A stretch of 41,767 bases of DNA from a virus, in IMG/VR virus record IMGVR_UViG_3300036985_002900, positions 1-41,767 of that record; one strand, given 5' to 3'. A model generated the notes under the pieces. It searched no databases, was not told the origin of the DNA, and worked only from the letters and a program-made list of their open reading frames with translations. This document shows, piece after piece, positions 12,371-38,506 of the stretch. Position 1 is the first letter of the stretch, and every line of letters starts with the position of its first letter. The position numbers were made by a program, and so were the translations under genes.

Positions 12371-12395
12371 ATTTTTAACTTAATAAATAAATAAA

Positions 12396-13562: not shown

Positions 13563-13584
13563 GAATTAAATTAATAAATAACCT

Positions 13585-13630
13585 ATGCCAGAGGGTGAGA
13601 GGAGTTCTCAAGTCCTCTGGCATATTTATT
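13585..13630 (+). terminator. terminator after the abundant head protein
   Basis: ATGCCAGAGG (13585-13594) pairs with CCTCTGGCAT (13614-13623). The loop itself holds a GAGA/TCTC mini-stem (13597-13600 with 13606-13609). The T/A-rich ATTTATTATAT follows. This is the longest perfect stem in the head-gene region. Confidence 0.75.
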
Positions 13631-13640
13631 ATATAACAAC

Positions 13641-14204
13641 ATGCCAACATTAAATTTAGATATACTTGTAGTTCCTACGTATAACACATTAACTCTTGGG
13701 GTGATAGATGCGTCTACATATCCTACAGATCCTCCTGTTGTCACATCTCCAACAATTGAAATAAATATTCCTGGATTTGATACTGCAATTCTTGCGTTTG
13801 ATGTAAATAATTTTAATATCTTTACATCATCAGATTTAGGTATTACAGCAATAGGTGTAAACCAACCTCTTCCTGATGGGGTATATCATTTAAAATATTC
13901 TGTAGCTCCAGCATACGAAAACTTTGTAGAGAAAACAATTATTCGTGTTGACAGACTACAAGAAAGATTTGATGAAGCATTCATGAAACTTGAAATGATG
14001 GAGTGCGACAGAGCAATTAGAACACAATCAAAAGTGGAATTAAGCTCAATCTATTTCTTCATACAAGGAGCAATTGCAGCAGCAAACAACTGTGCAATTG
14101 TCGAAGCAAACAAACTATATAATCAGGCATCTACAATGTTAACTAACTTTAACAGAAACAATTGTGGTTGTTCTGGAAATAATTATGCGATAAACTTTTA
14201 TTAA
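13641..14204 (+). CDS. virion structural protein, 187 aa
   Basis: The N-terminal half (1-95) is beta-rich and resembles an immunoglobulin-like head or fibre domain: TLNLDILVVPTYNTLTLGVIDAS, then a second strand pair around IEINIPGFDTAILAFDVNNFNIF, and a GVYHLKYSV strand. The C-terminal half is helical, with LQERFDEAFMKLEMMECDRAI and a long helix around QGAIAAANNCAIVEANKLYNQA, and ends with NCGCSGNNYAINFY. It sits just after a terminator and is followed at once by two small proteins (TAATATG, 1 nt gap). I recall this arrangement from Bacteroidetes phage structural clusters but not a function. Neck or fibre attachment is likely. Confidence 0.65.
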   Translation: MPTLNLDILVVPTYNTLTLGVIDASTYPTDPPVVTSPTIEINIPGFDTAILAFDVNNFNIFTSSDLGITAIGVNQPLPDGVYHLKYSVAPAYENFVEKTIIRVDRLQERFDEAFMKLEMMECDRAIRTQSKVELSSIYFFIQGAIAAANNCAIVEANKLYNQASTMLTNFNRNNCGCSGNNYAINFY

Positions 14205-14205
14205 T

Positions 14206-14316
14206 ATGGCTGCTTGTAGAAACTGTGGGACTAGTGTGGGCTGTGGATGTCAACTAAAGAATGGATTATGTGGAAAATGCCAAAGTGCTGCCAATAATCC
14301 TCAACCTAAAAAATAA
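14206..14316 (+). CDS. 36-aa Cys-rich mini-protein, zinc-ribbon-like
   Basis: A 36-codon frame starts 1 nt after the preceding stop with the leader TTAATATG and ends 5 nt before the next gene. It begins MAACRNCGTSVGCGC and carries CxxC at 4/7, CGC at 13/15 and CGKC at 22/25, so six cysteines in 25 residues. This looks like a tiny zinc ribbon. Its position between two conserved structural genes and the intact frame argue for a real gene despite the size. It could bind metal as a small structural part of the neck or fibre. Function unknown. Confidence 0.65.
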   Translation: MAACRNCGTSVGCGCQLKNGLCGKCQSAANNPQPKK

Positions 14317-14321
14317 TAATT

Positions 14322-14588
14322 ATGTTATCACCTAGACTAACCAATTGTCCAGAGTGTGCAAACATTCCTTCTCTGATTGCAGAGATTGATTGTAAAATTG
14401 CAGATATGGCTAATAGCTTATACAACAATGTTGTATTTATGCTTAACCAATCTTTTGCAGGGAGTGTTATGTTTGATCTTTTAAATTATAAAAGAATCCT
14501 CACATACAAATACCATAATCCAGATTATGCTAGTCAATATTCTGTGAATATGATTGCTAGTAAAATTAAACTTTTAAAATTCAAATAA
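14322..14588 (+). CDS. small helical protein, 88 aa
   Basis: Function not recognised. It starts with LSPRLTNCPECANIPSLIAEID, including a CxxC pair, followed by amphipathic helices (CKIADMANSLYNNVVFMLNQ) and a region with aromatic residues (KRILTYKYHNPDYASQYSV), and ends in a basic helix (IASKIKLLKFK). It sits 5 nt after the Cys-rich mini-protein and 1 nt before the first collar-domain fibre, so it is probably co-translated and may be an adaptor or chaperone for the fibre genes. No membrane segment is predicted. Confidence 0.65.
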   Translation: MLSPRLTNCPECANIPSLIAEIDCKIADMANSLYNNVVFMLNQSFAGSVMFDLLNYKRILTYKYHNPDYASQYSVNMIASKIKLLKFK

Positions 14589-22338: not shown

Positions 22339-23064
22339 ATGGCAACATTAAGAAAATTAGTCAGTGATGTTAGAAGTATGCACAAGATACTTTCTACAGA
22401 TGCACTTATTACAGATAGAGCTATTGCTTCTGAAATCAGAAACAACTCTTTATTGCTTATCAAAAGAGAAACCAATCTTAGAAAACTTTGGGCAACTGAT
22501 ACATTGTTCACTACGATTCCTTGTTTAGAGATGTGCCAAGTGCCAATCTCTGAATGCTGTGACTTTGTAGATGAATGCACAATTGCAAGAAGTAAACATA
22601 AAATTCCACGTATATCAGAAGGTAATTACCAATATGTAATACAAGGAGTTTATTCTATTAATGCATTGAGTGGTCAAGGAAAGAAGTTAAAAGAAATTTC
22701 TGTTAATAGATATATAAATCTATTAAAACTTCCTGTTATAAAGAATCAAGAATACTTCTGGATATCTAATGGATATCTGTATGTAAACAATCCAAACTTA
22801 CAAGCCATTCGATTTGTAGCATTATTTGAAGAAGATGTAGACAATGAGATCTTATATCCAGAATGTGGATGTGGAAAAGAATATTCTGAAGAAGAATATT
22901 GTATTAATCCATTAGATAAAAAGTTTGCTTGTCCAGGATATTTAGAACAACAAGTGTTACAATTAACTTCGCAGAAGTTATTATCTACATACTTCAGTAT
23001 CAAAACAGATATAACACAAGATGGTGTAGATGGACAAGCCCCAAATTCAAAGCCAACTAGTTAA
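22339..23064 (+). CDS. tail-barrel/ring protein candidate, 241 aa
   Basis: It starts 2 nt after the phosphoesterase stop and ends in a TAATG overlap with the IHF-like gene. The N-terminal part (1-55) is helical. Residues 60-125 hold a Cys cluster (IPCLEMCQVPISECCDFVDECTIA) and a YQYVIQGVYSINAL strand; the middle (about 130-170) is beta-rich (EYFWISNGYLYVNNPNLQAIRFVALFEED). A second Cys cluster follows (YPECGCGKEYSEEEYCINPLDKKFACPG, about 174-203) and a helical end. The order of this gene, the IHF-like gene, the gp4-like gene and the giant muzzle gene is that of crAss-like tail rings. I take it as one of the rings from context. Confidence 0.6.
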   Translation: MATLRKLVSDVRSMHKILSTDALITDRAIASEIRNNSLLLIKRETNLRKLWATDTLFTTIPCLEMCQVPISECCDFVDECTIARSKHKIPRISEGNYQYVIQGVYSINALSGQGKKLKEISVNRYINLLKLPVIKNQEYFWISNGYLYVNNPNLQAIRFVALFEEDVDNEILYPECGCGKEYSEEEYCINPLDKKFACPGYLEQQVLQLTSQKLLSTYFSIKTDITQDGVDGQAPNSKPTS

Positions 23065-23540
23065 TGAGAACAAAGGTTGATTGGAGAAGTTCGAGTAAAG
23101 ATAACTACAGGGAGTTTTGTAAAAAGTATCCCAATATATTGTTATCTTTTGATGAATGGAGAAGTGTCATTTATACATTCAACGAAGCATTCAAACAATA
23201 TATATTAGAAACTGGAGAGAAGATTAAACTTCCTTTTGGTTTTGGAGAGTTCTCAATAAAGAAAAAGAAGAGAAGAAAGATGAAAGGTGTTGATGGAAAG
23301 GAATATATTAATCTTCCCATTGACTGGCAGAAAACTAGAGAGAAAGGAAAAGTTATTTATAACTTTAATTATCACACAGAAGGATTCTTTTTTGGATGGC
23401 ACTGGTTCAAACAAAATGCTAGATTCAAACATTCTGATCTTTGGTACTTTAAACCTTCTAGAACAACATCAAGATTACTATCTCACTACATAAAGGCTGA
23501 TGATAAATATCAGCACATATATAGAGAGTGGATAACATAA
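23064..23540 (+). CDS. IHF-like structural ring protein, 158 aa
   Basis: The core KLPFGFGEFSIKKKKRRKMKGV (about 53-75) is the GFG turn of an IHF/HU-like domain followed by a basic arm. Before it, residues about 12-50 have the helical layout of HU (YREFCKKYPNILLSFDEWRSVI and FNEAFKQYILETG). The C-terminal half adds an aromatic-rich extension (FFFGWHWFKQNARFKHSDLWYFK). IHF-like proteins next to muzzle and gp4-like genes belong to the crAss-like tail barrel rather than to nucleoid structure. Coupled by TAATG to the gene before. It resembles the gene at 1345 only in the HU core. Confidence 0.65.
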   Translation: MRTKVDWRSSSKDNYREFCKKYPNILLSFDEWRSVIYTFNEAFKQYILETGEKIKLPFGFGEFSIKKKKRRKMKGVDGKEYINLPIDWQKTREKGKVIYNFNYHTEGFFFGWHWFKQNARFKHSDLWYFKPSRTTSRLLSHYIKADDKYQHIYREWIT

Positions 23541-23552
23541 ACATTTATAAAA

Positions 23553-24476
23553 ATGAGTTACTATTACAAATATAATTTTGTTAGCCCAGAGCCAGTCTAT
23601 GCACTTGTAAAAGAAGAATTAAAATCTTACTTTGATACAGGAGCTGTAGACGATTTGTTATTTCCAACCTACTTAGATAAATGTCTAAAGAAACTTGGAC
23701 AATCTAGTTATGTAATAGCTCAACAACTTCTACATATAGGGGACTTTGAAGCTAGACTTCCTGATAACTTTCATGCTGTTAGAGAAGCTTGGTTGTGTAC
23801 ATCTATTCCTGGATATCCATATCAGACAGCTAACTCATTTTACTCACAAGCTGCTTCAGAGACAACAATACAAATAAGTCCTGTTACATCTAATGGACAA
23901 CCTTGCACTAACTTAGAATGCACTACAGGATGTCCTACGTGTATGCCAACATTAGTTCAAGCTGTATATAAAACAAATCAGCAAGTTGCTGTTGAATATC
24001 ATAGACAATACTTATTGAAACCAGGAAACATTTCTGTTAGAGCAAACTGTTCTTTAGATTGTGCAAACTTTGGTTCATCAGCTGCTGACTCATTTGACAT
24101 CAGAGATAATAAGTTTGTCACTAACTTCAGAAATGGAGTGGTACACTTAGTATTCTACTCTACAGAATATGATAATGCAGGAAATCAAATGATGCCTGAC
24201 AACTATCGTATCAGAGAGTTTATAGAAGCATTCATTAAATATAAAGTGTTCGAAACACTTGCAAACCAAACTAACGACGAAACCTTTAACCAACTTCAAC
24301 AAAAACTTGTTTATTACAAACAACTTCATGACGAGGCTTTCATTATGGCAAACATCGAAATCAAAAAACAAGATGCTTACACTAAACAAAGACGAATCAT
24401 AAAAGATTTAAACAGGTTTAATATGTACGAGTTACCAAATCGTACTAATAGATATGGTAGAAGACGTAATAATTAA
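23553..24476 (+). CDS. tail tubular (P22 gp4-like) ring protein, 307 aa
   Basis: Probably the first ring below the portal, as gp4 of P22-type tails. The N-terminus (FVSPEPVYALVKEELKSYFDTG, then LLFPTYLDKCLKKLG) is helical; a central beta part contains Cys pairs (CTNLECTTGCPTCMP, about 127-141) and RQYLLKPGNISVRANCSLDC. The C-terminus is a long helical bundle (REFIEAFIKYKVFETLANQ, then QQKLVYYKQLHDEAFIMANIEIKKQDAYTKQ), with a basic tail RYGRRRNN. The order before the muzzle gene and the helical ends fit crAss-like tubular proteins. The assignment is by context plus helical pattern; no direct motif proves it. Confidence 0.6.
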   Translation: MSYYYKYNFVSPEPVYALVKEELKSYFDTGAVDDLLFPTYLDKCLKKLGQSSYVIAQQLLHIGDFEARLPDNFHAVREAWLCTSIPGYPYQTANSFYSQAASETTIQISPVTSNGQPCTNLECTTGCPTCMPTLVQAVYKTNQQVAVEYHRQYLLKPGNISVRANCSLDCANFGSSAADSFDIRDNKFVTNFRNGVVHLVFYSTEYDNAGNQMMPDNYRIREFIEAFIKYKVFETLANQTNDETFNQLQQKLVYYKQLHDEAFIMANIEIKKQDAYTKQRRIIKDLNRFNMYELPNRTNRYGRRRNN

Positions 24477-24481
24477 TACTC

Positions 24482-27400
24482 ATGGCAGACGATAAACTTG
24501 AAAAAATTAAGAAACTACTCAGTGGTGACCAAAGTGATGTTAACCAAGAGTATAATGTAGCATCTATAGGAATGAACTTGGATAACACTGTTAGTCAAGT
24601 TCCTAAAGGAATGCTTACTTATGCATTGAATGCTTCTCTTGAGAACTTTGATGCTAACTCTGTAAACTATCAGAATGAACCAGGAAATGAACCATGCTTT
24701 AATAACAATGCTGAGTTTTTTCCTGCTAATTACATATTGATTGGTACACATCTTATTCAAGAAAAAAATAAACATATATTCTTTCTTACTAATCCTTCAA
24801 CAGGTGAGTCAGAGATTGGATACATGGACAATAATGATTGTAACTATCATGTGTTTATTAGTGCACCTTGTCTTAATTTTGACATTGATTATCCTATACA
24901 CAAAATTGTACACAAGATAACTAACTGTAGTACAGAGATATATTGGACAGATGGATTCAATCCTAGAAGATATTTGGATCTTGACCCTCTTAAAATTCCA
25001 TATACATTAGCACAAAGTTCTACTTTTTGTGATCCTAATTATACAAGCCAAATAGATTGTAATCAATTAAAATTACAACCTAACTTTTCTATTCCTGAAT
25101 TAACTATTGTAGATGTTATAACAGGGGGGGACCTAACTGCAGGTACAGTGCAGTTTGCAATTCAATATTGTGATGCATCAAGTAATCCTTACACATCATA
25201 TTATTCAGTTACAAATCCTACACCTATTGCAAATGCTCGTGTTACAGATGTTAACTTTAACTATCCTGTTGGAAAATCAGTTGTAGTTGGAATTAATAAT
25301 CTTGATGCTACAGGACAGTTTCAATATTTCAACTTAGCTGTAATTAAAACAATAAATGCTATTTCATCAGTAGAACTAATAGGTACATACTTCATTGATA
25401 ATGTAATAATGAGCATTACATATAGTGGTCAAAATAAAACAAACATTAGACTTTCTACAGCTGATATTTTTGAAAAGTTTCCTCATTACGAAATAGCACA
25501 AGATCTTACATCTGTACAAGATATTCTTGTATGGGATAATCTTACATCTATTGATAGAATCAACTATCAATCTATTGCAAGTAAAATCACTCTTGGGTGG
25601 GAAACATATAGAATCCCTTCTGATGAAAACTATGCAGATGAATTAAATGCTACAAACTTACGTGGTTATCTACGTGATGAAGTGTATGCATTTGAAATCG
25701 TGTTCTTACTAAAGAATGGAAAGCAAACAGATGGTTTTCATATTCCTGGAAGACAAAGAAATAATAATGAGTCTTATCCAGATGTACCTGACACAAGTCC
25801 TGATTTTATAGGAACTCCTGAATACATTGATCCTCTTACAGGAGTTGGATATAGTCCTTATTGGAAAATATATAATACAGGTAGAGTAGTTGGAACTGGT
25901 GGAGGATTACCTATTGGAAATGCAACACCATATGAATATGGTGATTTTGCATATTGGGAATCAAAAGAAAAATACCCATGTAACGATGCTTTATGGGAAG
26001 ATCTTGCAGATCAACCTATTAGACATCACAAGTTTCCTGATGTTCTTGTTAGTCCTATATTTGAAAGTGCTACACCAGTAATTGTTGCTGATAAATATAC
26101 AGTGAAAATGCAAACATCAGATGCTGTATTTCCTATTGGTGTAAAAATTAATATTAGTCAAGTTACACAATTAATTCAACAATCAAATTTAACAGAAGAT
26201 CAAAAAGCTGACATTGCTGGATTTAAAATTATAAGAGGAGACAGAGGAACAAATAAATCAATTGTTGCTAAAGGTATTCTTAGAAATCTTAATTTATACG
26301 AAAGAGAAAAACAAACTTTTTATTTTCCTAATTACCCATATAATGATCTTAGTGAAGATCCTTTCTTACTTACAGCTAATAATGCATATTCACAGTTAGC
26401 TGGACCTTGGGTAGTTATGTGTACAGAAATTGATCCTCTTACAGAGCCAGGTGGTTCATTATATAATCCTGCTGATCCTGATCCTAGACCATATGGAACT
26501 TATGAATATGTAGATCCTAATACAAATAAAACTTTTACAGAGAGAATGTATTTGAACGAGATAAAAGAATTTTGTTCAAATAGTAGACCTTTTTTTGTTA
26601 CAGGTAAAGCATATATAGGTCCTGGAAATTATGATGTATATAAATTTAGAAGTAGAGGATGTAGAGGTTTTCACGTATTATGGTCAAGTCCTTATACAAT
26701 TGATAATACAGCCTTGTATCCACAATCTCCATGGTTAAAAGGATGGAGTGCTTTCGAGATAGATCTTGAAACTGTACTTACAGTTGGTATTTTAACACAA
26801 TTATTTTTTTGGAGTGGTTTACCACTTGGAGCTGTTTTCATTGCAGGATCAGTATTGCTAAATGGTAGAACATTACTTGCTGTTGTTGATGTAAATGGAA
26901 GTGTTGGAGATGATTGTAGTAATGGTTTTTGGGATGGAGCTTGTAAGTGTAGTGCAGCAAGAGAATATATACCAGCTATTGGTGAAGCTGAAGAAGGAGT
27001 TATTGATTTTACTCGTTCTAGAAGATCTAGTGTTAAGTGTGGTGAAACAACTCAACTTCCTGCTATAACAACTGATGCATCAAAATACAGACATGTGTTT
27101 AATTCTCCTGAGACATCTTTTGGACAACCTTTCTTAGGCAATGTTCTTAAGTTGGAGAATGTTATGTATGGAGCAGGTACTGGACATTTTGTTGCAGTTA
27201 ATAAGAATGCTAAGTATAAACTTCTTTCTAAAGAAGCTCAGGAAGATGCATTAGCTAGTTCTGATAATATAGCAAGAATCACTAATCCTTTTGATTTTAC
27301 TGCAATGTTTACAGCATATCAGGCATATTTGACTATTTATGTAAATGGTATTACAAGAAAGAACTATGCGTATTCTTTCAATTCAATTGCTAGTTATGAT

Positions 27401-30400
27401 TATTTTGGAGATATTGAAAATAATCCAGCATTAGCAATTAAACAACGTAACATTGATATTACACAATATCTTATTCCAGGAGTACAATCTGTAGGAGATA
27501 ATCATAACATTAATAATTTTAATAGAGAATCTTCTGTATTTATAAAAACTATAGAAGATAGAAATAATAATATTACTGTTCCACCTTTATTATTTCCTAA
27601 TGACATTCCAAGTATTAGCATAAATGGATCTCCTGGTATTAGCGACTATTCAAGATTTACAATTAGTAGTTCAGATGCTTGTATCACTCCTGCAGAAGAA
27701 CAAGATGATGTAACAGTAGTATCTTATTATGCTTCCATGAAAAATGTATTTGATAACCAATGGGGACAAATATATTCGTATGACACAATTGATACAGGTT
27801 TTCAAAAAACAGTTCCATTTACAGGAGTATCAGCTGCTACTATATTTGGAGGTGATACATTCATTTCTAGATTTGCATTTAAAACAAAACTTCCATACTT
27901 TATTGATAATAGAGTGGGAGCTCCTGATGATTCAGAGATATTCTATGATGAGATTGGTAACATAGCCTATCCAAAGTACTGGCACTCAGCACGTTCTGTA
28001 TTATCAGATTATAGTCTTCAAAATGGAACTGTAATGACAAATATAGTTTCAATTAAAGCACATAATCTTGATTGTCCTAACAATCCTGGCAACGTACCTA
28101 AAGGAAGTGAGAGTTCTTATAGAACTTATTATGATGGATATTTCTATTTATTTGCATATGGAGTTCCAAACTTCTATTGTGAAAGTTCTTATAATGTAGA
28201 TTTGCGTCAAGCTTTTAATAATAGAGAAGGTGACTTCTGGCCACATGTTAGTACTAGTATTCCTGATGATTGGGTACAAGAAAGCTATGTACCAATTTCT
28301 CAAGATAATACATATTACTATAATACAACTTTTTCTAAACAGAATAAAGAGAATTATTTCACACACTTACCTCCTGATTGGACAGAACAATTGTGTTATA
28401 CAAACTACCCATTCAGAGCTATATACTCAGATCCCCAAACCACAAATGCTGATAACAGAGTTAATAACTGGTTGACCTATAGAGCAACTGCAATGTTTGA
28501 CTTCCCTCAGAACTATGGTAATCTTACATCTTTAGATGGTATTCAGAACAAAGCTGTATTAGCAAGATTTGAAAATAAGTCATTGTTATATAACACATTG
28601 CTTACAATTAACACAAGTAATCCACAAGCAGCATACATAGGAAACGATACATTGTTTAAACAATCCCCTCCTATTGACTTTGCTGAAACAGATCTTGGAT
28701 ATGTAGGAAGTCAGAATAAGTTCTTGTTGAAGATTCCACAAGGACAAATTACTGTTGATGCTAAACGTGGACAAGTGTTTCTTGTTAATAGTAATCAAGC
28801 TACAGATCTTTCTGCATTTGGCACAGGAATGAATAGATTCTTTACAGACCATTTAGCATTTGAGATTCTTAGATATTTCCCTGAAGTAAATACAGATAAT
28901 CATTTCACAGGAACTGGTTTACATGGAGTGTATGATTCTAAATTTGATAGAGTTATTATTACAAAACTTGATTACATTCCTATTGATAAAGATGTAAAAT
29001 ACGATGCTGATAAAAGAGAGTTTTATATAGAGACAGTGCAGTATATTCCAGACGCTACATCCACTACTACAACATCTTCTACAACATCAACAACTACAGT
29101 ACCTCCAACTACCACTACTACTACAAGCACCATTGTAAATTGTTGCACATTTCCTACTAATTTAGAATTACCTGGAGGTGATATTTTATTAGATGGTGTA
29201 AACTTAACATTTTCATCTACTCAACCTGCAGGTCTATCAATTTGGACATTTCCTACTATAATGCTTCCTCAATGTTTACCTCCTCAAACATTAAATACTG
29301 TAACTACAGGTGGATTTGATGGTACAGTAGATTGGGATTACACTATTAATTTTGACCAACCTGTTAACAATGTTAATATTCAAGTAATAAATTATAGTGC
29401 TAATTCTGTTTTACAAATTCAAGAAAAAATTACTTTCACTACAAATACAGATGTTCCTGAAATAATTAATTGTGATGGTTGTAATGTTATAATAGAAAGT
29501 AATTCTATTAAATGTGTTATGAACACTGGTGGTAGTGGAACATTTACTGTTAGCACAACTCTTCCATATACATCTCTTACATTAACACCAACTGTGTTAG
29601 GAGTTAATCCAGCAGGTCGTGCAGTAACTGTATTTTTAAGAATTTGTGGACTTACAATACCAACAACAACAACTACATCTACGTCTACGTCTACATCTAC
29701 ATCTACAACAACTACTACAGAATATTTATCTAGAGAATTTTGTGTATGGTCTACAAATACTTATGACTTTCCAACACTTACGTCAGAATTTAATCCAATA
29801 GATAACACTCTTACTGCAGTACCTATAGACAATGATTTGACAGGACTTGTATCAGTGGGCATAGCTTCGACATCTACAAAGTTTTGGAAACATGATCCAG
29901 TGGGTAGAACAATGAGAGAATGGTGGATAGGTTCTAATCCTGCTGCTCTTACATTCAATAGAGATATAACATACAATGATTTGGGACCAAATTATGTAAA
30001 TGTTTCTACAATAGTAGCTGTAGATAATACAACTATTCTTACAACAATTAATCCTACAAGTCCAACATATCCATATGGTATTCCAGGAAATGTAATTTTA
30101 TGGAAGTATGATATATCTGGAAATTCTGCAGGTAATGGAACTGGCATGTTTAGTATTCAAGCTAAAAATTATGCAACGTCAATGATGTTTACTACAGATA
30201 ATAAATTAATTGTAAGTGCATTTAGAGTAGTTTCAAGTGTAAATGTATATTATCTAACACAATATTCATATCCTGATGGGTTACTAGAAGTGGATATTAG
30301 TTTAGCTTCAATACCATTTGATCCTTCTGCTAGTAGTTTAGCAATTTATCTAATTACATATAATAGTGAAATCTATCTAGTAAGAAGTAATGATAGTTCT

Positions 30401-31090
30401 TTATTCAAAATAGAAACTACTTATCCATATACAATAACAGAAGTTACAGCTGATTTAGGATATGAACAACATAGAATATTTGAATCATCTACTGGAGAAT
30501 GTAATAATGTTAGTTTTGTTCCTACGTTTCCTGAATGTGGTACAGCTCTTCCAGCATTAGGAGGAAGTTTAATATATAATGGACGTACTGTAACTAACAC
30601 TGCATGGAGTGGAGGTATTATTTCTTCTGCTGGTGGAGCATACTATGCACCATGTTCAGGATTATATATACCTGCAAATCTTATAGTTTTTAATGGTGCA
30701 CCTTTTTCATACACATTAACTTTTAGTACTCCTATTAATAATGTAGCAATTATAATAAGTGTTTTAGATCTTGGTGATAATTTTACAATTACAACAAATG
30801 AAGAGATTCCTAGTATAGTTGACACTACTGTTTGTTATGCGCATGTTACTGGTAATCAGATAATTAGTGATCCTGCACCTGTAGGATCATTTGGTAGTGG
30901 AGAATTTATAATCACTACCCTTACTGATTTTACAGAATTGACTATACAAGGTACAAATGGTGGTAATGGTGGAGTTATTAGTTTAAGTTGTGATCCAAAT
31001 CCTCCTATCACTTCTACAACAACAACTACTAGTACTACATTAGCACCAACAGGATTTAATACAATTTACACACACTTTGAAGCTATATAA
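24482..31090 (+). CDS. giant tail stabilisation (muzzle) protein with extra Thr-linked domains, 2202 aa
   Basis: Residues 1-1522 match the crAss-like muzzle type: an N-terminus with YNVASIGMNLDNTVSQVPKGMLTYALNASLENF, repeated beta-rich domains, and an end near DADKREFYIETVQYIP. Beyond this, four extra segments hang on Thr/Ser tracts: a beta module (about 1550-1725), a propeller-like domain (about 1748-2010, with IASTSTKFWKHD and ILWKYDISG), and a second beta module related to the first (about 2016-2175; both contain a Pro/Asn-Asn strand and a TTN..P motif). The protein then stops after FNTIYTHFEAI. The usual muzzle C-terminus (SWTISY and the closing domain) is missing here and is instead found in the genes at 32354 and 34110. 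I infer that the original gene was split. The protein would form the tail tip. Confidence 0.8.
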   Translation: MADDKLEKIKKLLSGDQSDVNQEYNVASIGMNLDNTVSQVPKGMLTYALNASLENFDANSVNYQNEPGNEPCFNNNAEFFPANYILIGTHLIQEKNKHIFFLTNPSTGESEIGYMDNNDCNYHVFISAPCLNFDIDYPIHKIVHKITNCSTEIYWTDGFNPRRYLDLDPLKIPYTLAQSSTFCDPNYTSQIDCNQLKLQPNFSIPELTIVDVITGGDLTAGTVQFAIQYCDASSNPYTSYYSVTNPTPIANARVTDVNFNYPVGKSVVVGINNLDATGQFQYFNLAVIKTINAISSVELIGTYFIDNVIMSITYSGQNKTNIRLSTADIFEKFPHYEIAQDLTSVQDILVWDNLTSIDRINYQSIASKITLGWETYRIPSDENYADELNATNLRGYLRDEVYAFEIVFLLKNGKQTDGFHIPGRQRNNNESYPDVPDTSPDFIGTPEYIDPLTGVGYSPYWKIYNTGRVVGTGGGLPIGNATPYEYGDFAYWESKEKYPCNDALWEDLADQPIRHHKFPDVLVSPIFESATPVIVADKYTVKMQTSDAVFPIGVKINISQVTQLIQQSNLTEDQKADIAGFKIIRGDRGTNKSIVAKGILRNLNLYEREKQTFYFPNYPYNDLSEDPFLLTANNAYSQLAGPWVVMCTEIDPLTEPGGSLYNPADPDPRPYGTYEYVDPNTNKTFTERMYLNEIKEFCSNSRPFFVTGKAYIGPGNYDVYKFRSRGCRGFHVLWSSPYTIDNTALYPQSPWLKGWSAFEIDLETVLTVGILTQLFFWSGLPLGAVFIAGSVLLNGRTLLAVVDVNGSVGDDCSNGFWDGACKCSAAREYIPAIGEAEEGVIDFTRSRRSSVKCGETTQLPAITTDASKYRHVFNSPETSFGQPFLGNVLKLENVMYGAGTGHFVAVNKNAKYKLLSKEAQEDALASSDNIARITNPFDFTAMFTAYQAYLTIYVNGITRKNYAYSFNSIASYDYFGDIENNPALAIKQRNIDITQYLIPGVQSVGDNHNINNFNRESSVFIKTIEDRNNNITVPPLLFPNDIPSISINGSPGISDYSRFTISSSDACITPAEEQDDVTVVSYYASMKNVFDNQWGQIYSYDTIDTGFQKTVPFTGVSAATIFGGDTFISRFAFKTKLPYFIDNRVGAPDDSEIFYDEIGNIAYPKYWHSARSVLSDYSLQNGTVMTNIVSIKAHNLDCPNNPGNVPKGSESSYRTYYDGYFYLFAYGVPNFYCESSYNVDLRQAFNNREGDFWPHVSTSIPDDWVQESYVPISQDNTYYYNTTFSKQNKENYFTHLPPDWTEQLCYTNYPFRAIYSDPQTTNADNRVNNWLTYRATAMFDFPQNYGNLTSLDGIQNKAVLARFENKSLLYNTLLTINTSNPQAAYIGNDTLFKQSPPIDFAETDLGYVGSQNKFLLKIPQGQITVDAKRGQVFLVNSNQATDLSAFGTGMNRFFTDHLAFEILRYFPEVNTDNHFTGTGLHGVYDSKFDRVIITKLDYIPIDKDVKYDADKREFYIETVQYIPDATSTTTTSSTTSTTTVPPTTTTTTSTIVNCCTFPTNLELPGGDILLDGVNLTFSSTQPAGLSIWTFPTIMLPQCLPPQTLNTVTTGGFDGTVDWDYTINFDQPVNNVNIQVINYSANSVLQIQEKITFTTNTDVPEIINCDGCNVIIESNSIKCVMNTGGSGTFTVSTTLPYTSLTLTPTVLGVNPAGRAVTVFLRICGLTIPTTTTTSTSTSTSTSTTTTTEYLSREFCVWSTNTYDFPTLTSEFNPIDNTLTAVPIDNDLTGLVSVGIASTSTKFWKHDPVGRTMREWWIGSNPAALTFNRDITYNDLGPNYVNVSTIVAVDNTTILTTINPTSPTYPYGIPGNVILWKYDISGNSAGNGTGMFSIQAKNYATSMMFTTDNKLIVSAFRVVSSVNVYYLTQYSYPDGLLEVDISLASIPFDPSASSLAIYLITYNSEIYLVRSNDSSLFKIETTYPYTITEVTADLGYEQHRIFESSTGECNNVSFVPTFPECGTALPALGGSLIYNGRTVTNTAWSGGIISSAGGAYYAPCSGLYIPANLIVFNGAPFSYTLTFSTPINNVAIIISVLDLGDNFTITTNEEIPSIVDTTVCYAHVTGNQIISDPAPVGSFGSGEFIITTLTDFTELTIQGTNGGNGGVISLSCDPNPPITSTTTTTSTTLAPTGFNTIYTHFEAI
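29057..29131 (+). repeat. Thr/Ser-tract at the end of the conserved muzzle part
   Basis: Twenty-five codons mainly of Thr and Ser, with a Val-Pro-Pro interruption. It marks the exact point where the conserved muzzle part ends and the added domains begin. Confidence 0.85.
29662..29719 (+). repeat. Thr/Ser-tract with a hexanucleotide microsatellite
   Basis: Within the tract TCTACR is repeated five times (29678-29707), coding for Ser-Thr pairs. Simple repeats of this kind can slip during replication in steps of two residues without changing the frame. Confidence 0.85.
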
Positions 31091-31092
31091 TA

Positions 31093-32340
31093 ATGGAGAA
31101 TAATATTGAAAATATAAAACTAAAAGTACAGGAGTTGGCCATGTCAACTCCTAATATCAATAGTGTTTCTTATGGTTATAAGTTTGTTGGAAATGAACAA
31201 ACTGATGAGCTATGTATAATGTATGGTGTTGAACAAAAGAAACCTCTTTCTGAGTTATCTCCTGAAGAAATTCTACCTAGTACAATTACAGTTGGAGAAC
31301 AAGTATTAAAAACAGATGTGTATGAGGTAAGTAAGGCAGAACTATTAGTATGTAATGCTTATTGTGGACAAGTGGCTGGACCAAATTCAGCTGATAATAG
31401 AGCATATACAAGACCATTAAAAGGTGGGCTATCTATTACATCAACTAATAATATAGGAACTGTAGGAACTTTAGGGTTTATAGGAGTGCATACAGAAACA
31501 CAAACGTTAGTGGGTGTTACTAATAATCACGTAACTATACAAGATGCATTCTATACATCAGAACAAAATTTATTTGGTATTATTCAAAATGAATATAACC
31601 CAGTAGATGAAGTTTTTCAAAATGGTGAGGGTGTTCCTCCTTCAAATTATGCAGTTGGGCAATCATTAAGATATGTTCCTATTTCAAAAACAAATCTAAA
31701 CTATGTTGATGGTGCTATATTTTCTTTAAATTCAGAGGATGTAGATATCACTTCATCTTTTCGAACTATTGGATCTGATTATACATTTCCATTACCATTT
31801 GCTACAACAGCAGAGATAGATGGATTACTTACTACTAATCCAATGTTATATAGTTCTGGAAGAACTACAGGACCAAAAGGTGGTGCAGTGTGTCCATTAC
31901 GAATTTTTTCATTATTTTCATCAACAGTATTAGCTTATCAACTACAAGGAACTTCTACATATTGTTATTTTAGTGATCAGATAGTTTTTGTAAAACCTGT
32001 AACTGATCCTAATATATCAACTATATGTTCTAATCCTATATATTCTGGTGATTCAGGATCTGCGTTAATTGCTGATTTTGATGGTGTCAGAAAAATAATT
32101 GGATTGGTATTTGCTTCAGGTAGTGTAGGAGGTATAATATATTATGGATATGCAAATAGAATAGATCGTGTTGCTACAGAATTAGGTGTAGAGGCATGGG
32201 ATGGATCAGCTAAAGGTTATGTGGATACTAATTCTATTACATATAAAACAACCATTAATGGTAGTTCAAATAAAACATTAACTTGTGGTGGCACTACTTA
32301 TTGGCAAGTTGGACTAACTACTCTTAGTAATCCATGTTAA
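31093..32340 (+). CDS. trypsin-like serine protease, 415 aa
   Basis: A chymotrypsin-fold protease signature is complete: catalytic His146 in VTNNHVT, Asp206 in YVDGAI and Ser321 in SGDSGSAL, in the right order and at family-typical spacing. The N-terminal 100 residues form a separate helical/beta domain (KLKVQELAMSTPNIN...YGVEQKKPL), probably a prodomain or virion adaptor. The C-terminal 40 residues (TINGSSNKTLTCGGTTYWQVGL) resemble a small attached beta domain. There is no signal peptide, so it should act in the virion or in the infected cell. It lies between the giant muzzle gene and the first displaced muzzle fragment. It may cleave virion proteins in maturation or degrade host surface proteins. 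Active-site residues are seen, targets are unknown. Confidence 0.8.
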   Translation: MENNIENIKLKVQELAMSTPNINSVSYGYKFVGNEQTDELCIMYGVEQKKPLSELSPEEILPSTITVGEQVLKTDVYEVSKAELLVCNAYCGQVAGPNSADNRAYTRPLKGGLSITSTNNIGTVGTLGFIGVHTETQTLVGVTNNHVTIQDAFYTSEQNLFGIIQNEYNPVDEVFQNGEGVPPSNYAVGQSLRYVPISKTNLNYVDGAIFSLNSEDVDITSSFRTIGSDYTFPLPFATTAEIDGLLTTNPMLYSSGRTTGPKGGAVCPLRIFSLFSSTVLAYQLQGTSTYCYFSDQIVFVKPVTDPNISTICSNPIYSGDSGSALIADFDGVRKIIGLVFASGSVGGIIYYGYANRIDRVATELGVEAWDGSAKGYVDTNSITYKTTINGSSNKTLTCGGTTYWQVGLTTLSNPC

Positions 32341-32353
32341 AAACTAATAATTT

Positions 32354-34105
32354 ATGACTGAAGATAATTTAATACCAATAGTAACAAGAACACAGGTCTA
32401 TCTTACAGATCCTGAATTCTTCTGTAATAAGTCTTGGACCATCTCGTATAATATGAATACCAATAGTTGGATTTCATTTCACAGCTATATTCCTAATTGG
32501 TATATGGGCGAGAATAACTTTTTCTATTCAGGGATTAATGGCTGTTGTGATGATTTTGATTCTAATTTTATTGCATTTGTAGGTGATACAAATAAACCTA
32601 CAACCTCTACAACTACCACAATTCCAACTAGACCAAATTATACAACTACTACAAGATATGTTCCATCATGTGATTTAGTGGGTGAAGCTACAGAACTGTT
32701 TTGTGAATTGGCTGGTGAAGTTGTAATTACAGTTTCAACAACAACAACAACTACAACTTGTATACCACCTGCTGGTTTATTTACATATATTTTATATGCT
32801 GGATATCAGTATGGTAGTGGTACACCAATTGATTCTACGTTAAGTTTAAGTGATATGTGTAATGCCATGGGGATTATTAGACTTGGCAATCCATCAATTA
32901 GTGCTGTAACAATTAATGGTTATGCATTTAGTCTTGATGTTTTACAATTTGTTTATGATAATCAATTTTCTACTTGTACATTTATTCCTGATGGATATTA
33001 TTATACAGAAGAAGGACTATCTGAAGGATATGGATATTATGTATCTGATGGATATATTGCTGAAATAGTAAGTTGTAATTGTGGAACTACTACTACTACA
33101 ACTACAATTGCACCAACAGTAGATGAATGTTGTGGAATATTATTTAGTGGAACAGATAAAGTTTATCTTATCAATAATGATGGTAATCCTATAACAGAAT
33201 TAATTGTACCAGGATATGTAAGTGGATATGGGATAGCTATGACAGCAAATAAATTTTGGTCTGTTGATACACAGTTTATTGAATGGGATATAACATTATC
33301 CCCATTTAGTGCAATCTTTAATAGGAACATTACTTTCCCTGGAGGATTTACAACATCATCAGGAATTGTAGCAATTGATGATGTAACATTAATTACAATA
33401 GACGATTCTGTTTCTCCTCAGGATGTAGTAGAAATGGATGTTACAGGACTTGCAGGAGTTGCAACTATAATGTTTAGTTTACAAACTGACAGAGTTGCAA
33501 TAGGAAACATGTTATATACAACAGGGGGTAAGCTTATCATAATTAATCAGGATACAATATCTTCTGATTACTTTATTACACAATATGACTATGCTACATC
33601 AGTGATCGAAATAGATTTAAATGTTGGAACATCTTATGATCTTGTAACATTATCAGAATGTAATTGTGTTATATTTGCAGGAGATACTTCTGGAAACTTA
33701 TACGCTGTAGATGAATTACTGTCAGGTGTATTAATTCCTATAGTTGGTACAGGACTTGTTCTTGAATCATCTACACAATTAGCAAGTTGTGTTCCACAAT
33801 CTCTTAATAGTAATGGTAATAATATAACTACAACTACAACAACTACAGTGTTTGTTCCAAATCCATTCTGTTATACTATTAGTGTATCTGGTAATGGAAC
33901 AGCTACATTTACTTGGATAGATTATTTAGGAGTGGGACAATTCCAAACATTGGCTAATGAAACAATTTACATATGTGCAGAACTTAATACTGTTAATGGA
34001 GAAACAACTGGAGAAGCTATAATTACTCTTACAGGGGGAATAACTTCTTGTACATCTGATGGAGATTGTACACCAACAACGACAACAACAACAACTATTC
34101 CTTAA
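32354..34105 (+). CDS. displaced muzzle segment plus Thr-linked surface domains, 583 aa
   Basis: Residues 1-75 contain FCNKSWTISYNMNTNSWISF and FHSYIPNWYMGENNFFYSG, which I recognise as a conserved C-terminal segment of crAss-like muzzle proteins, here without the rest of the protein. Then Thr tracts (32599-32621, 32734-32758, 33085-33106, 33826-33848, 34074-34096) join a small domain with CDLVGEATELFCELAG, a domain rich in Tyr/Gly (about 135-243), the third propeller-like copy (about 255-486; TANKFWSVD, FIEWDITLSPFSAIFNRNI) and a copy of the NPFCY domain (about 500-572). The protein ends on a Thr tract. I take it as a piece of a formerly continuous tail protein extended by surface modules. 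Confidence 0.7.
   Translation: MTEDNLIPIVTRTQVYLTDPEFFCNKSWTISYNMNTNSWISFHSYIPNWYMGENNFFYSGINGCCDDFDSNFIAFVGDTNKPTTSTTTTIPTRPNYTTTTRYVPSCDLVGEATELFCELAGEVVITVSTTTTTTTCIPPAGLFTYILYAGYQYGSGTPIDSTLSLSDMCNAMGIIRLGNPSISAVTINGYAFSLDVLQFVYDNQFSTCTFIPDGYYYTEEGLSEGYGYYVSDGYIAEIVSCNCGTTTTTTTIAPTVDECCGILFSGTDKVYLINNDGNPITELIVPGYVSGYGIAMTANKFWSVDTQFIEWDITLSPFSAIFNRNITFPGGFTTSSGIVAIDDVTLITIDDSVSPQDVVEMDVTGLAGVATIMFSLQTDRVAIGNMLYTTGGKLIIINQDTISSDYFITQYDYATSVIEIDLNVGTSYDLVTLSECNCVIFAGDTSGNLYAVDELLSGVLIPIVGTGLVLESSTQLASCVPQSLNSNGNNITTTTTTTVFVPNPFCYTISVSGNGTATFTWIDYLGVGQFQTLANETIYICAELNTVNGETTGEAIITLTGGITSCTSDGDCTPTTTTTTTIP
33826..33848 (+). repeat. Thr-tract linker, seven Thr codons
   Basis: Separates the third propeller-like domain from the NPFCY domain. 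Sister tracts lie at 32599-32621, 32734-32758, 33085-33106 and 34074-34096 in the same gene. Confidence 0.8.
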
Positions 34106-34109
34106 TGAT

Positions 34110-34976
34110 ATGTCAAAGGTTATAACAATACGATTAACAACAGCTGGAGCAGGTACTGGACCATTCACGATCACAGATCAGTTTGGTAATGTTATAGCTA
34201 CAAACGTTTCGAAAAAATCATTGATGGCAGGAATTAGTTATGTAGTTGATAATGTAGTTGACATAATAACAATTGAATCTACAGGAAAATGTAAATTAAA
34301 AAAATCATTCACTCTACAATCAATTACTAGAACTGACTATGCAGCTTTAACATATACACAATCTACTAGTGCGTGTCTATGGAGACATCTTACTGACATA
34401 CATACATATAACTACTACTATGGAAAAATAGAACCATACATTATTGAATACCCTTTTACATATCAATACCAAGATGAAATCTTACAGAATGTAAAAGATT
34501 ACACCAAGGCATATGAATACATTCCTATTCCTGATGGTGTATTTAGTTACAATACAAAAGTTGAAACAAACGATAAATGGTTCAATAAAGCTATTCTATA
34601 TAATGGACAACAAAGCTCAGGGTTATTAGAACTTGTTCCAAAACCAATGCATAACTTACAAGCATACAATTTATATCCTAAGTATAACAGTAATAGCAAA
34701 ACTATTACATATACTAAGAGTGACAACTTCTATCAGTATAATACATTCTGGGCATTACAGAAGAGTTCTCAGATTCCATTATTCAATACGTCTTGTGAAA
34801 GCCTTTCAATTGATAAGGTGATTAATGAATCAAATATGGACTATGGAACCAGATCATTTAAGAAAGCTACACTTAGAGCCAAAGAACTCAAAGTGAGACA
34901 CATTTTAGATGACAGTTGCACAGTACACTTAGTTAGTCAATTCATAATAACTCCTGCACAAATCTCTTACAAATAA
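34110..34976 (+). CDS. fusion of TTAG-type domain with the muzzle C-terminal domain, 288 aa
   Basis: I choose the ATG at 34110, 4 nt after the preceding stop, because the domain shared with the protein at 20136 begins there; a longer frame from 34059 would overlap the Thr tract. Residues 1-65 (VITIRLTTAGAGTGPFTITD, SLMAGISYVV) are that shared domain. Residues about 85-288 (YYYGKIEPYIIEYPF, FNKAILYNGQQSSGLLELVP, TYTKSDNFYQYNTFW, RSFKKATLRAKELKV, SQFIITPAQISYK) match, as far as I recall, the very C-terminus of crAss-like tail stabilisation proteins. So the last part of the muzzle appears here as its own gene. The stop overlaps the next start as TAATG. Confidence 0.7.
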   Translation: MSKVITIRLTTAGAGTGPFTITDQFGNVIATNVSKKSLMAGISYVVDNVVDIITIESTGKCKLKKSFTLQSITRTDYAALTYTQSTSACLWRHLTDIHTYNYYYGKIEPYIIEYPFTYQYQDEILQNVKDYTKAYEYIPIPDGVFSYNTKVETNDKWFNKAILYNGQQSSGLLELVPKPMHNLQAYNLYPKYNSNSKTITYTKSDNFYQYNTFWALQKSSQIPLFNTSCESLSIDKVINESNMDYGTRSFKKATLRAKELKVRHILDDSCTVHLVSQFIITPAQISYK

Positions 34977-37900
34977 TGAAAGGAAAGGTAACATGTTCAA
35001 GTTGTGGATGGTCATGGAACAAATCTGATTCTAGTCAGAAAGACATGTATGTATGCCACGAATGTGGTAGAGACAATAGCAACAACATGAAGAATGGTGG
35101 TTGGTTAGATGGACATTCTGATACTCCTAAAGCACAAACAGGGAATAAAACATTATCGTCAGAATATATTGACATATCAAAGAAGTATGGTATTCCTCAG
35201 TTTACTGAAGAATATATTAATAAAGCTGTCGAGTTAAACAAAAAATACCCTGGCAGTAAGTTTGTTTGTGATGCTAATGGTTGTGCTGATATAGCTAGCC
35301 AAGCTGCTAGTGGTATGGGGTATGACTTTGGTAAAGCTAATGCTTGGGATTATGGAAATAGATCTGATATTCTTTTTACTAATCCTAGTTATGCAGAAGA
35401 GTTAAAAGATCCTAATGGTCCTTTACACAATCCTACTTCTTATGATGTTCCTAAAGAATTCTTAGGAATGCAGAATGTATTAATTGGACTTAATCGTAAG
35501 AACAACTTACTTAATGCAGAAGGAAAAAAAGTAGGGAATGTTCCTAATGCGCAACAGCTAGCTGCTGCTGCAAATAAAGGAGAAGCTAATGACTCTTATG
35601 ATTATGCTAACCAAGATCTTTATGAAGGATCTAGAGGATATGAGCACGTTGGATACATGATGGGTAATAATAATTTACTGCATGGGACAGCTGCTAATAA
35701 AGATCATCCTGCATTCTTTGTAATAGATGATATTAGTGATGGTGTTAATTTAGCAGGGTATGGAAAGTATGAACCTGTTGAAGCAATTGCTGAACCTACA
35801 ATGGTTCAAACTCTTACTAATAAACTTAAGTCATTAGGTACTAAAGCAGAAAAAGCTTTATTTGGAGAATCTGATAAAACAACTCCACCAACTTTTAAAA
35901 AGAAAAAGAATGGGGGATGGTTAGAGTCATATGCTGATGGTGGATCTATGCAAGAACACCAAGAGAATTACAATGATTATAAAGTTTCTGCTCCTGAAGG
36001 ATTTAAAGGGAATGGACATTCTAACATAGGACGTAATTATTCTCCTGCATGGGGGGGACAGTTTCAAAAAGGAGGTAAACTTAAATTCTTACAACCTACA
36101 GATAAAAATTTACCTGAAGGATATAGAATACCTTATGACACTCCTAGTTCTGAAAGAGCTATGTCAATTGGTGGAGAGAATGGAGAACCAGCTTATTTGA
36201 TTCCTAGCTTTAAATATGGTAAAGAACTAGATGATCCAATGGGAGAATTTAGAAAAACAGGAGAACATCTTGGTGGACCATTTAAAACTTGGCAAGAAGC
36301 AGATGAGTGGGAAAGAACTGTAAGACACCCTGCTGTTGAGAAAGGAGAAAACATAATGTTTCCTCAAGAAAAATTTGCAATGGGAGGTTCTATTCCAGGA
36401 GCTGTAGGATTTACATATGCAAGACATGGTGCTCCTAGTAAAGGACCACGTAGAAATCAAACTGATGTAACTGATGCCTCTGCACAGAATGGTATAGACA
36501 TGCATAACAATCCTATGCTTGCAAGAAGAGTAGATAATCCTAATGTAAATAGAAGTTATTACGATCCTAGGTTAAACACAATGAACATAGGAACTGATTA
36601 CAATACATGGAAGGATGAATACACTGGTGAACTATTAACAGGAGATGATTTAAAATACCATCAAGATAAAATGTTAGCACATGAAAACTATCATGCTATA
36701 CAACACTCACAAGATAGAGATAATTATGATATAGCTCATGGTACAGAAAATGAGCAATGGGCACGAATGCAAAAGCGTCCACAGATGATGACCACTGATG
36801 CTGTTTATAATAATTTCTATAACAGAAGTGATTTTGAAGATGAACAAGATTATCAAGAGATGATAAACAGTTATCCAGAATCAAGAATCCTTAATCCAAA
36901 ATTATTATTTGATAAAATTCTTGATAGACAGAGATATGATAACCCTGCAAATTTAGAAGGAGAAGCAAAGTTTTACGAAGATACAGGAGTTGATATTAGT
37001 AAACAACAATCTGAACTTTCTTTAAATCCTACAAGGTTTCAAAATGGTGGAGAGATGCGTTATTACCAACATGGACTTGATTGGAAACCTAAAGGAATGG
37101 AGAATGGTGGTTGGTTGAGTAAATATGATAAAGCACAGAATGGTTATCAAACTGGAGATAAACCTATATTAGGTGGAGGTAAATATTATACTACTGATAA
37201 TAAAGTAGTAGACTGGGGAACTCCTGAATATGAAGCTGCTTATAATAGAGGAGAAGTGTTATCTGACGATGGTGTACGTTCTGAAGTAACTTTAGAAGGA
37301 GGAGTGCTTCCTGAAATTGTTTTACAAAATAATTACAAAAGAGGATTTTGGGAAAAGTATAGAGATAAAATTATAGATGAGAATAGGGATGCTGGACCAT
37401 TAGGTGCTGCAGTGGGAGCACCTATATCTGCTGCATTTAGTTTACCTCAAATGGCAGTAACAAGTCTTTTTAATAATGGAAATCCTGCACGTCCTTCTGA
37501 GATAGTTGGTTTTGATAATAATGAAGGAGTATTTGATAATCCTGTTTCATTTGGCAGACATGCTTCTAATTTTTTATTAGATGCTGTAACTGATCCTGTA
37601 AACTTAATTGGAGCAGGAATACTGACTAAAGAAAACGCACTTGCTAAATTAGCAGCAAGTAAAGAATCAGGTTTATTATCTAATGCATATAAATATAATC
37701 CTTGGGCATTTAAACCTGATCCTGAAGCTTATTATCATAGGAGCCCTAATTTAGAAAACATTGTTAATAAAAAAACAGGAACTCTTCAAGGATTTGGAAA
37801 TTCTGAAGCAGGTATAGAATTTAGTAAAGATGCAGGACCAGGAGGAACAGGAAATTTATTTATAACACCTAATGGTGAGGTTACAAAACTTAATTTAAAA

Positions 37901-38506
37901 AAACCTGCTAATTCTCAATTGTATTTTGCTAAAGGTACTCCTTTAGATTGGGGTAGAACAAATATGATATTTGATAAAAAAACTGGTAAAATGATACCAG
38001 GTCAAGGATACACTGGTCCATACATGGCTGAAGTAAAAAATGTTCCTATGGGAGCTTCAACTAAAGGTAGTGCTCCTGGTGCAGATGTAACAAATATAGG
38101 AGGTTATGCTGTTTCAAGAAGACCTGTATTATTAAATGAAGCTAAATTTTATAAAGAAGATTGGTTAAAAAGATATAAAGAAGTTCCTAAACAAGAAGAA
38201 GGAGGAGTTATTAAAGATGACATGGGACAATGGGCTCATCCAGGAGAGATAACAGAAATAGGTTCCAACAATATAACCATGCAAGGAGTTCCTTATGATG
38301 TATTAGGAATATCAGATGAAGGAGATACAAAACTAATGAAACCAGGAAAGAATTATAAGTTCAAAGGAAAGAAGGTAACTGAATATCCTATGGCTAACAA
38401 TGGAATGAGGCAAGAACAAAAAGGTTTGGTTAACCTAGATCAATTAACTAACTTTACAAACTATAACAAACCACAACCAGGTGGATGGTTGAATAAATAC
38501 AATTAA
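34976..38506 (+). CDS. giant virion cargo protein with zinc ribbon and two peptidase-like domains, 1176 aa
   Basis: An N-terminal zinc ribbon has Cys7, 10, 27 and 30. A cysteine-peptidase-like domain follows (about 60-290; candidate Cys103 in NGCADIASQAA and His224 in YEHVGYMM), perhaps an NlpC/P60- or CHAP-type cell-wall hydrolase. Next is a TGEHLG segment (about 427) seen in phage ejected proteins. A zincin motif HENYH lies at 569-573. The region from about 770 is a long linker and beta part, ending with a conserved domain (MGQWAHPGEITEIGSNNITM, then LKPG-type strands). The motif NGGWL/GG with flanking Lys, Asp or Asn recurs throughout. Such proteins are packed in the head and enter the host with the DNA. 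Activities are predicted from motifs only. Confidence 0.7.
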   Translation: MKGKVTCSSCGWSWNKSDSSQKDMYVCHECGRDNSNNMKNGGWLDGHSDTPKAQTGNKTLSSEYIDISKKYGIPQFTEEYINKAVELNKKYPGSKFVCDANGCADIASQAASGMGYDFGKANAWDYGNRSDILFTNPSYAEELKDPNGPLHNPTSYDVPKEFLGMQNVLIGLNRKNNLLNAEGKKVGNVPNAQQLAAAANKGEANDSYDYANQDLYEGSRGYEHVGYMMGNNNLLHGTAANKDHPAFFVIDDISDGVNLAGYGKYEPVEAIAEPTMVQTLTNKLKSLGTKAEKALFGESDKTTPPTFKKKKNGGWLESYADGGSMQEHQENYNDYKVSAPEGFKGNGHSNIGRNYSPAWGGQFQKGGKLKFLQPTDKNLPEGYRIPYDTPSSERAMSIGGENGEPAYLIPSFKYGKELDDPMGEFRKTGEHLGGPFKTWQEADEWERTVRHPAVEKGENIMFPQEKFAMGGSIPGAVGFTYARHGAPSKGPRRNQTDVTDASAQNGIDMHNNPMLARRVDNPNVNRSYYDPRLNTMNIGTDYNTWKDEYTGELLTGDDLKYHQDKMLAHENYHAIQHSQDRDNYDIAHGTENEQWARMQKRPQMMTTDAVYNNFYNRSDFEDEQDYQEMINSYPESRILNPKLLFDKILDRQRYDNPANLEGEAKFYEDTGVDISKQQSELSLNPTRFQNGGEMRYYQHGLDWKPKGMENGGWLSKYDKAQNGYQTGDKPILGGGKYYTTDNKVVDWGTPEYEAAYNRGEVLSDDGVRSEVTLEGGVLPEIVLQNNYKRGFWEKYRDKIIDENRDAGPLGAAVGAPISAAFSLPQMAVTSLFNNGNPARPSEIVGFDNNEGVFDNPVSFGRHASNFLLDAVTDPVNLIGAGILTKENALAKLAASKESGLLSNAYKYNPWAFKPDPEAYYHRSPNLENIVNKKTGTLQGFGNSEAGIEFSKDAGPGGTGNLFITPNGEVTKLNLKKPANSQLYFAKGTPLDWGRTNMIFDKKTGKMIPGQGYTGPYMAEVKNVPMGASTKGSAPGADVTNIGGYAVSRRPVLLNEAKFYKEDWLKRYKEVPKQEEGGVIKDDMGQWAHPGEITEIGSNNITMQGVPYDVLGISDEGDTKLMKPGKNYKFKGKKVTEYPMANNGMRQEQKGLVNLDQLTNFTNYNKPQPGGWLNKYN

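Follow-up and report, generated by a model that had tools for sequence, protein, structure and literature searches.

Introduction

Phage tail-spike depolymerases cut polysaccharides, usually as part of the spike. The experimental work that we know of on NAL1-type proteases comes entirely from plants. The maize protein ZmNAL1a degrades its target in vitro, and in plant extract this breakdown is sensitive to PMSF (PMC12915138). The phage protease family described here is already known, and is named 'protease' in PHROGs (phrog_20754), an annotation that mentions neither an adhesin partner nor a tag. In the crAss001 structure, the muzzle has been described as a hexameric gatekeeper (PMC10172136).

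Here we analyze a protease gene in the tail-tip cluster of a virus of bacteria (IMG/VR record IMGVR_UViG_3300036985_002900). The window, i.e., the whole stretch of 41,767 nt that was analyzed, is a Crassvirales fragment, as the CrAss_Ring_1, CrAss_Ring_2 and muzzle profiles all match. We consider the chances to be evenly balanced that this NAL1-type protease is a partner in a mobile adhesin unit, the tag of which is recognized by its own protease.

Results

The protease gene is conserved and under selection

The features of the locus are collected in Table 1. The coordinates and the 415-aa length given by the initial annotation were exact, and the ORF starts with an ATG codon, 2 nt past the stop of an upstream 2202-aa ORF. 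Invariant columns were few in an alignment of 44 relatives. They include H146, D206 and G319-D320-S321-G322-S323, so that the catalytic triad that had been proposed, His146 (TNNHV), Asp206 (YVDGA) and Ser321 (GDSGS), is fully retained, and also W404, Q405 and G407 near the C-terminus. Among 60 distinct relatives, the triad was kept by every full-length copy except one decayed tandem copy (at L064). The dN/dS between relatives was 0.17-0.28, which indicates that selection acts on the protease protein; a chance ORF or a decayed gene was excluded by the conservation of the triad and these values. In line with the annotation, no signal peptide is evident, and the N-terminus reads as a helix of the NAL1-type domain (by eye and in the model). 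From its sequence the protease looks catalytically active, and we infer an activity.

Two gene copies depart from the common form: in L060 (1160-2463) the protease gene is in two ORFs, and in L166 the protease stops just before the hairpin. Both might reflect decay or sequence errors. Around the protease region of the window, promoters were not above chance, and three terminators were detected versus 1.3 expected.

Table 1. Coordinates of the muzzle, adhesin and protease features in the window.
Feature	Position	Strand	Basis
Crassvirales muzzle protein, main part	24482..29054	+	phrog_37948, E=1.3e-96
Thr-rich linker ending the muzzle part; insertion boundary inside the repeat	29055..29127	+	comparison with L074
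3.3-kb piece missing in L074 (muzzle-fused adhesin module and protease gene)	29074..32362	+	alignment with L074
Adhesin module, predicted beta-propeller	29741..30490	+	AlphaFold model; Kelch match weak
Adhesin module, predicted beta-sandwich	30548..30991	+	AlphaFold model
Tag T-I-Y-T-H-F ending the muzzle-adhesin fusion, behind a Thr-rich linker	31061..31078	+	motif counts
NAL1-type chymotrypsin-fold serine protease, 415 aa	31093..32340	+	sequence, alignment, predicted structure
Catalytic His146 codon	31528..31530	+	invariant in 44 relatives; aligns with NAL1 N-H-V motif
Catalytic Asp206 codon	31708..31710	+	invariant in 44 relatives
Catalytic Ser321 codon (GDSGS)	32053..32055	+	invariant in 44 relatives; aligns with NAL1 GDSGS
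C-terminal beta-hairpin, invariant Trp404-Gln405-x-Gly407	32275..32313	+	alignment, model; outside the NAL1-matching part
Displaced muzzle segment, then Thr-rich-linked domains	32354..34105	+	phrog_37948 match, relatives
Muzzle region C-terminal piece, own ORF in this clade and relatives	34059..34976	+	comparison of relatives

The protease is of the NAL1 type

The chymotrypsin fold, for which a check by structure prediction had been suggested, was borne out by AlphaFold2 and structure comparison. The model of the protease, based on 44 sequences, had a pLDDT of 87.9 and a pTM of 0.92. When it was used as a Foldseek query, chains of rice NARROW LEAF 1 (NAL1) occupied the top 34 rows, and the best structural alignment to NAL1 extended over 328 residues (model residues 3-375; Z 30.8, rmsd 3.2 Å). 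Alpha-lytic protease and S. griseus protease B aligned with Z ~18, over residues 107-371 only. A sequence profile of the 44 relatives also matched NAL1 chains (E=8.5e-6). Single relatives gave weak Pfam matches, the best being to NAL1_N (E=0.0025) and Nal1_C (E=0.014), and the window protease alone matched no Pfam family. phrog_20754 matched the window protein (E=2.9e-18) and 41 of the 44 relatives; its 324-position profile covers residues 2-366 only, and the C-terminal hairpin falls outside. The match to NAL1 ends near residue 381, and the last ~40 residues, which include the WQxG hairpin, lie beyond it. By its fold and triad, the protease is placed among the NAL1-type chymotrypsin-fold serine proteases. 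Trypsin, with its specificity for Lys/Arg, has a specificity-pocket Asp six residues before the catalytic Ser. By ungapped count, the residue at this distance from Ser321 is Pro315; the term 'trypsin-like' used in the initial annotation is right for the fold and may not hold beyond it.

The upstream partner is an adhesin with a C-terminal tag

A protease-based search of viral contigs gave 68 loci. The gene directly upstream of the protease nearly always encoded a large protein, which in most cases had Thr-rich linkers, and was spaced by -4 to +34 nt in nearly all loci; an adhesin-protease fusion by readthrough is unlikely, since the spacing varies over all frames. The last 16 residues of the upstream protein contained the motif T-[IVM]-[YFW]-x-x-F, here called the tag, in 53 of 57 distinct genes, a count that is descriptive because these same upstream genes served to define the motif. 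The background, which is unaffected by this definition, was zero: the tag was observed in 0/1,235 other proteins of these loci (0/1,210 other genes and 0/25 contig-last genes) and in 0/61 ends of the proteases themselves. Among the 1,235 are 357 proteins with Thr-rich linkers and no adjoining protease, and the tag was observed in 0/357 of these, which rules it out as a common ending for Thr-rich proteins of phages.

In the window, the tag is followed by three residues and the stop codon, and the protease starts 2 nt further on. The adhesin module, which a Thr-rich linker here joins to the muzzle, was modeled by AlphaFold with a pLDDT of 77, and its fold matched propellers in general only. Both linker and tag were disordered in the model, which fits a peptide with its binding partner elsewhere, and a tag forming part of the adhesin's own fold was not supported.

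In a second search, the adhesin module alone served as query. The protease was next in every locus in which the gene end was present. Twenty further loci were found on new contigs, all with the protease next, and the tag was exact in 14 of them, had Leu for the final Phe in five, and was missing in one (L181). The strict tag is missing at a few loci (L059, L063, L064 and L181). When the upstream proteins were compared by BLAST without their last 30 residues, they fell into one group of 49/57 and six small groups, and in at least five of these seven groups there are members with the tag, or a variant of it, at their end. The tag therefore occurs on bodies without detectable similarity, which may still be remote homologs; as 49 of the 57 bodies are of common ancestry, the tag counts are not independent events. 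The simplest reading of this distribution is that the tag concerns the protease. The constant partner of the protease turned out to be the C-terminally tagged adhesin module directly upstream, and not the split muzzle; the initial annotation does not mention the tag. In L003, the Thr-rich protein encoded just upstream of the tagged adhesin (4203-7181) weakly matches von Willebrand factor A.

The pair comes and goes as one piece, independently of the split muzzle

The initial annotation had placed the protease between the muzzle and its displaced segment and had suspected a special link. The position is real: residues 14-62 of ORF 32354 match positions 2051-2099 of the muzzle profile phrog_37948, and in most relatives the muzzle is unbroken through the segment that starts this ORF. 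The split, however, is older and independent of the protease. The closest relatives (L074-L077, 95-96% identity) are equally split and lack both the adhesin module and the protease, and elsewhere the protease is found away from the muzzle, so that the link was rejected. In the window and in L074-L077 the muzzle is spread over three ORFs (24482, 32354 and 34059); in most relatives those corresponding to 24482 and 32354 are a single ORF.

Window positions 23001-29073 correspond to 5676-11751 of L074 with 96.4% identity, and positions 32363-35110 to 11788-14538 with 94.9% identity. Between these two stretches, L074 has 36 nt in place of the 3.3 kb of the window, and at this empty site the muzzle ends in a Thr-rich linker without the tag. 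The difference is either an insertion in the window lineage or a loss in the L074 lineage, and in both cases the adhesin-protease unit was gained or lost as a whole, its edge lying in a Thr-rich linker. A different insert is found at the same muzzle loop in L098 and its relatives, and the adhesin module is also fused to the muzzle in a second contig (L107/L162), which is truncated at its end. The ORF that follows the muzzle region (34976-38506 in the window) ranges in length from about 230 to 1900 aa in the relatives; it has repeated K-x-G-G-W-L-like motifs and an N-terminus of zinc-ribbon-like appearance, with an insignificant Pfam match.

Architecture and spread of the family

One group of proteases has Thr-rich linkers and additional domains after the protease domain, with a total of 766-1282 aa. 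This is an adhesin-type architecture, which fits an exposed virion part. L001/L002 carry two tandem paralogues. At L064 (1433-14592), six tandem NAL1-type copies surround one adhesin; one lacks the triad and one has a second, degenerate domain (by reading). Several of these L064 copies carry tag-like C-termini of their own. A tail sheath suspected by eye beside L064 was not confirmed. The hairpin, WQxG or at some loci the variant YQxG, accompanies the tag.

The crAss ring 2 protein was present in 14 of the 24 contigs tested and was not detected in ten. One of the ring-less contigs, of 174 kb, encodes a family B DNA polymerase. Since the ring-less loci form distinct groups, the pair probably extends beyond Crassvirales, the absence of the ring being judged on fragments. 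Other Crassvirales, such as L003, have the pair placed upstream of the ring genes and not at the muzzle. No cultured carrier of the protease was found in 50,697 phage records, and the L003 and L051 relatives match one uncultured huge phage. Two short-pattern scans of genome contigs gave no bacterial relatives, which speaks to the reach of the patterns only; phrog_20754 matches Methanosarcina acetivorans. A NAL1-type protease gene with 26-28% identity is present in the huge phage LR756508 (L157:10001-11008), outside a visible structural cluster. It has neither the tag nor the C-terminal hairpin.

Discussion

We propose that the protease is dedicated to the adhesin of the preceding gene and that the two genes form a mobile unit, which becomes attached to tail-tip genes at Thr-rich linkers. 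The tag, exposed behind a flexible Thr-rich linker, would be recognized by its own protease, perhaps through the phage-specific C-terminal hairpin. This hairpin is a candidate docking site, as it accompanies the tag and both are missing in LR756508, a contrast that rests on one case. In the version that we favor, the tag would dock the protease on the adhesin tip and the virion would bring it to the host, where the docked enzyme might, once in contact, cut surface proteins or the adhesin of the phage itself. Docking is favored by inference on two grounds: part of the family consists of proteases with the build of a tail adhesin, and enzymes are commonly held by a short peptide that follows a flexible linker. 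That phages of different kinds have an exchangeable protein-cutting tip, in which the C-terminal adhesin peptide docks its own NAL1-type protease, is a tentative reading, to which we give somewhat less than an even chance.

Display on the virion and maturation of the adhesin C-terminus are both possible, as are the processing of tail proteins, the detachment of surface modules and the digestion of host surface layers put forward in the initial annotation. If the protease were a maturation enzyme, it would recognize the tag during assembly, cut the C-terminal Thr-rich linker of the adhesin and thereby remove the tag, and it would not be displayed. A tag at the extreme C-terminus behind an unstructured linker is indeed a good protease substrate, and both the specificity of the tag for protease-bearing loci and the close spacing of the two genes agree with such a role. 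However, the fusion of some proteases to Thr-rich linkers and additional domains suits an exposed structural part better, and the same is true of the extra tandem copies (L001/L002 and L064), which are less expected for a soluble maturase; we regard maturation as possible, on the unlikely side. A more specialized role, in which a tail-tip protease severs the linker between muzzle and adhesin upon binding and so assists in opening the muzzle gate or in freeing the adhesin, is suggested by the attachment of the window module to the muzzle, the hexameric gatekeeper of crAss001 (PMC10172136), and by the second module-muzzle fusion in L107/L162. In most phages, however, muzzle and adhesin are separate, so that a contact trigger cannot be the general function, and we judge it highly improbable. 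Finally, the protease might be an intracellular effector that acts against the host and lies among tail genes by chance. The lack of an evident signal peptide and the LR756508 gene outside a structural context would be in line with this; the strict pairing with a tagged adhesin, the common Thr-rich architecture and the movement as a unit argue in the other direction, and we give this explanation hardly any credence. The fold, the conserved triad, the pairing, the tag and the mobility are what the analysis shows, whereas activity, recognition of the tag, a place in the virion and the substrate are proposals.

In a limited literature search, no Crassvirales work with the term 'trypsin-like' was found, and neither was a described adhesin-protease pair, tag or joint mobility. 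The pairing and the tag suggest a previously undescribed two-part device for attack or maturation. An odd gene position has in this way led to a testable rule, i.e., that the C-terminal tag of an adhesin predicts an adjoining protease gene, and a NAL1-type protease is placed in a clear viral genetic context. Should the protease be displayed, phage tails would bear exchangeable proteases in the way that they bear sugar-cutting enzymes, and studies of how tail parts are joined would gain a defined element in the tag.

Compared with known systems, the likeness to NAL1 is the closest one: the common fold extends over residues 3-381 (Z 23-31, 15-18% identity), and the N-terminal domain and the His and Ser motifs align, whereas the C-terminal hairpin, the adhesin partner and the tag are features of the phage protease. 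DegS and AlgW share the chymotrypsin fold (Z ~13, far below NAL1), and the recognition of an aromatic C-terminal peptide may, by analogy, be common to them and the phage protease; they bind C-terminal Y-x-F peptides via a PDZ domain, however, and none is seen here. The main part of the window muzzle gene corresponds to the gp44 muzzle of crAss001, from which it differs in being divided into three ORFs and in carrying the added adhesin module. With the virion-borne depolymerases, the proposed device would share the idea of a tail-carried enzyme for the host surface; those enzymes cut polysaccharides and are usually part of the spike, whereas here the enzyme is a protease encoded by a separate gene.
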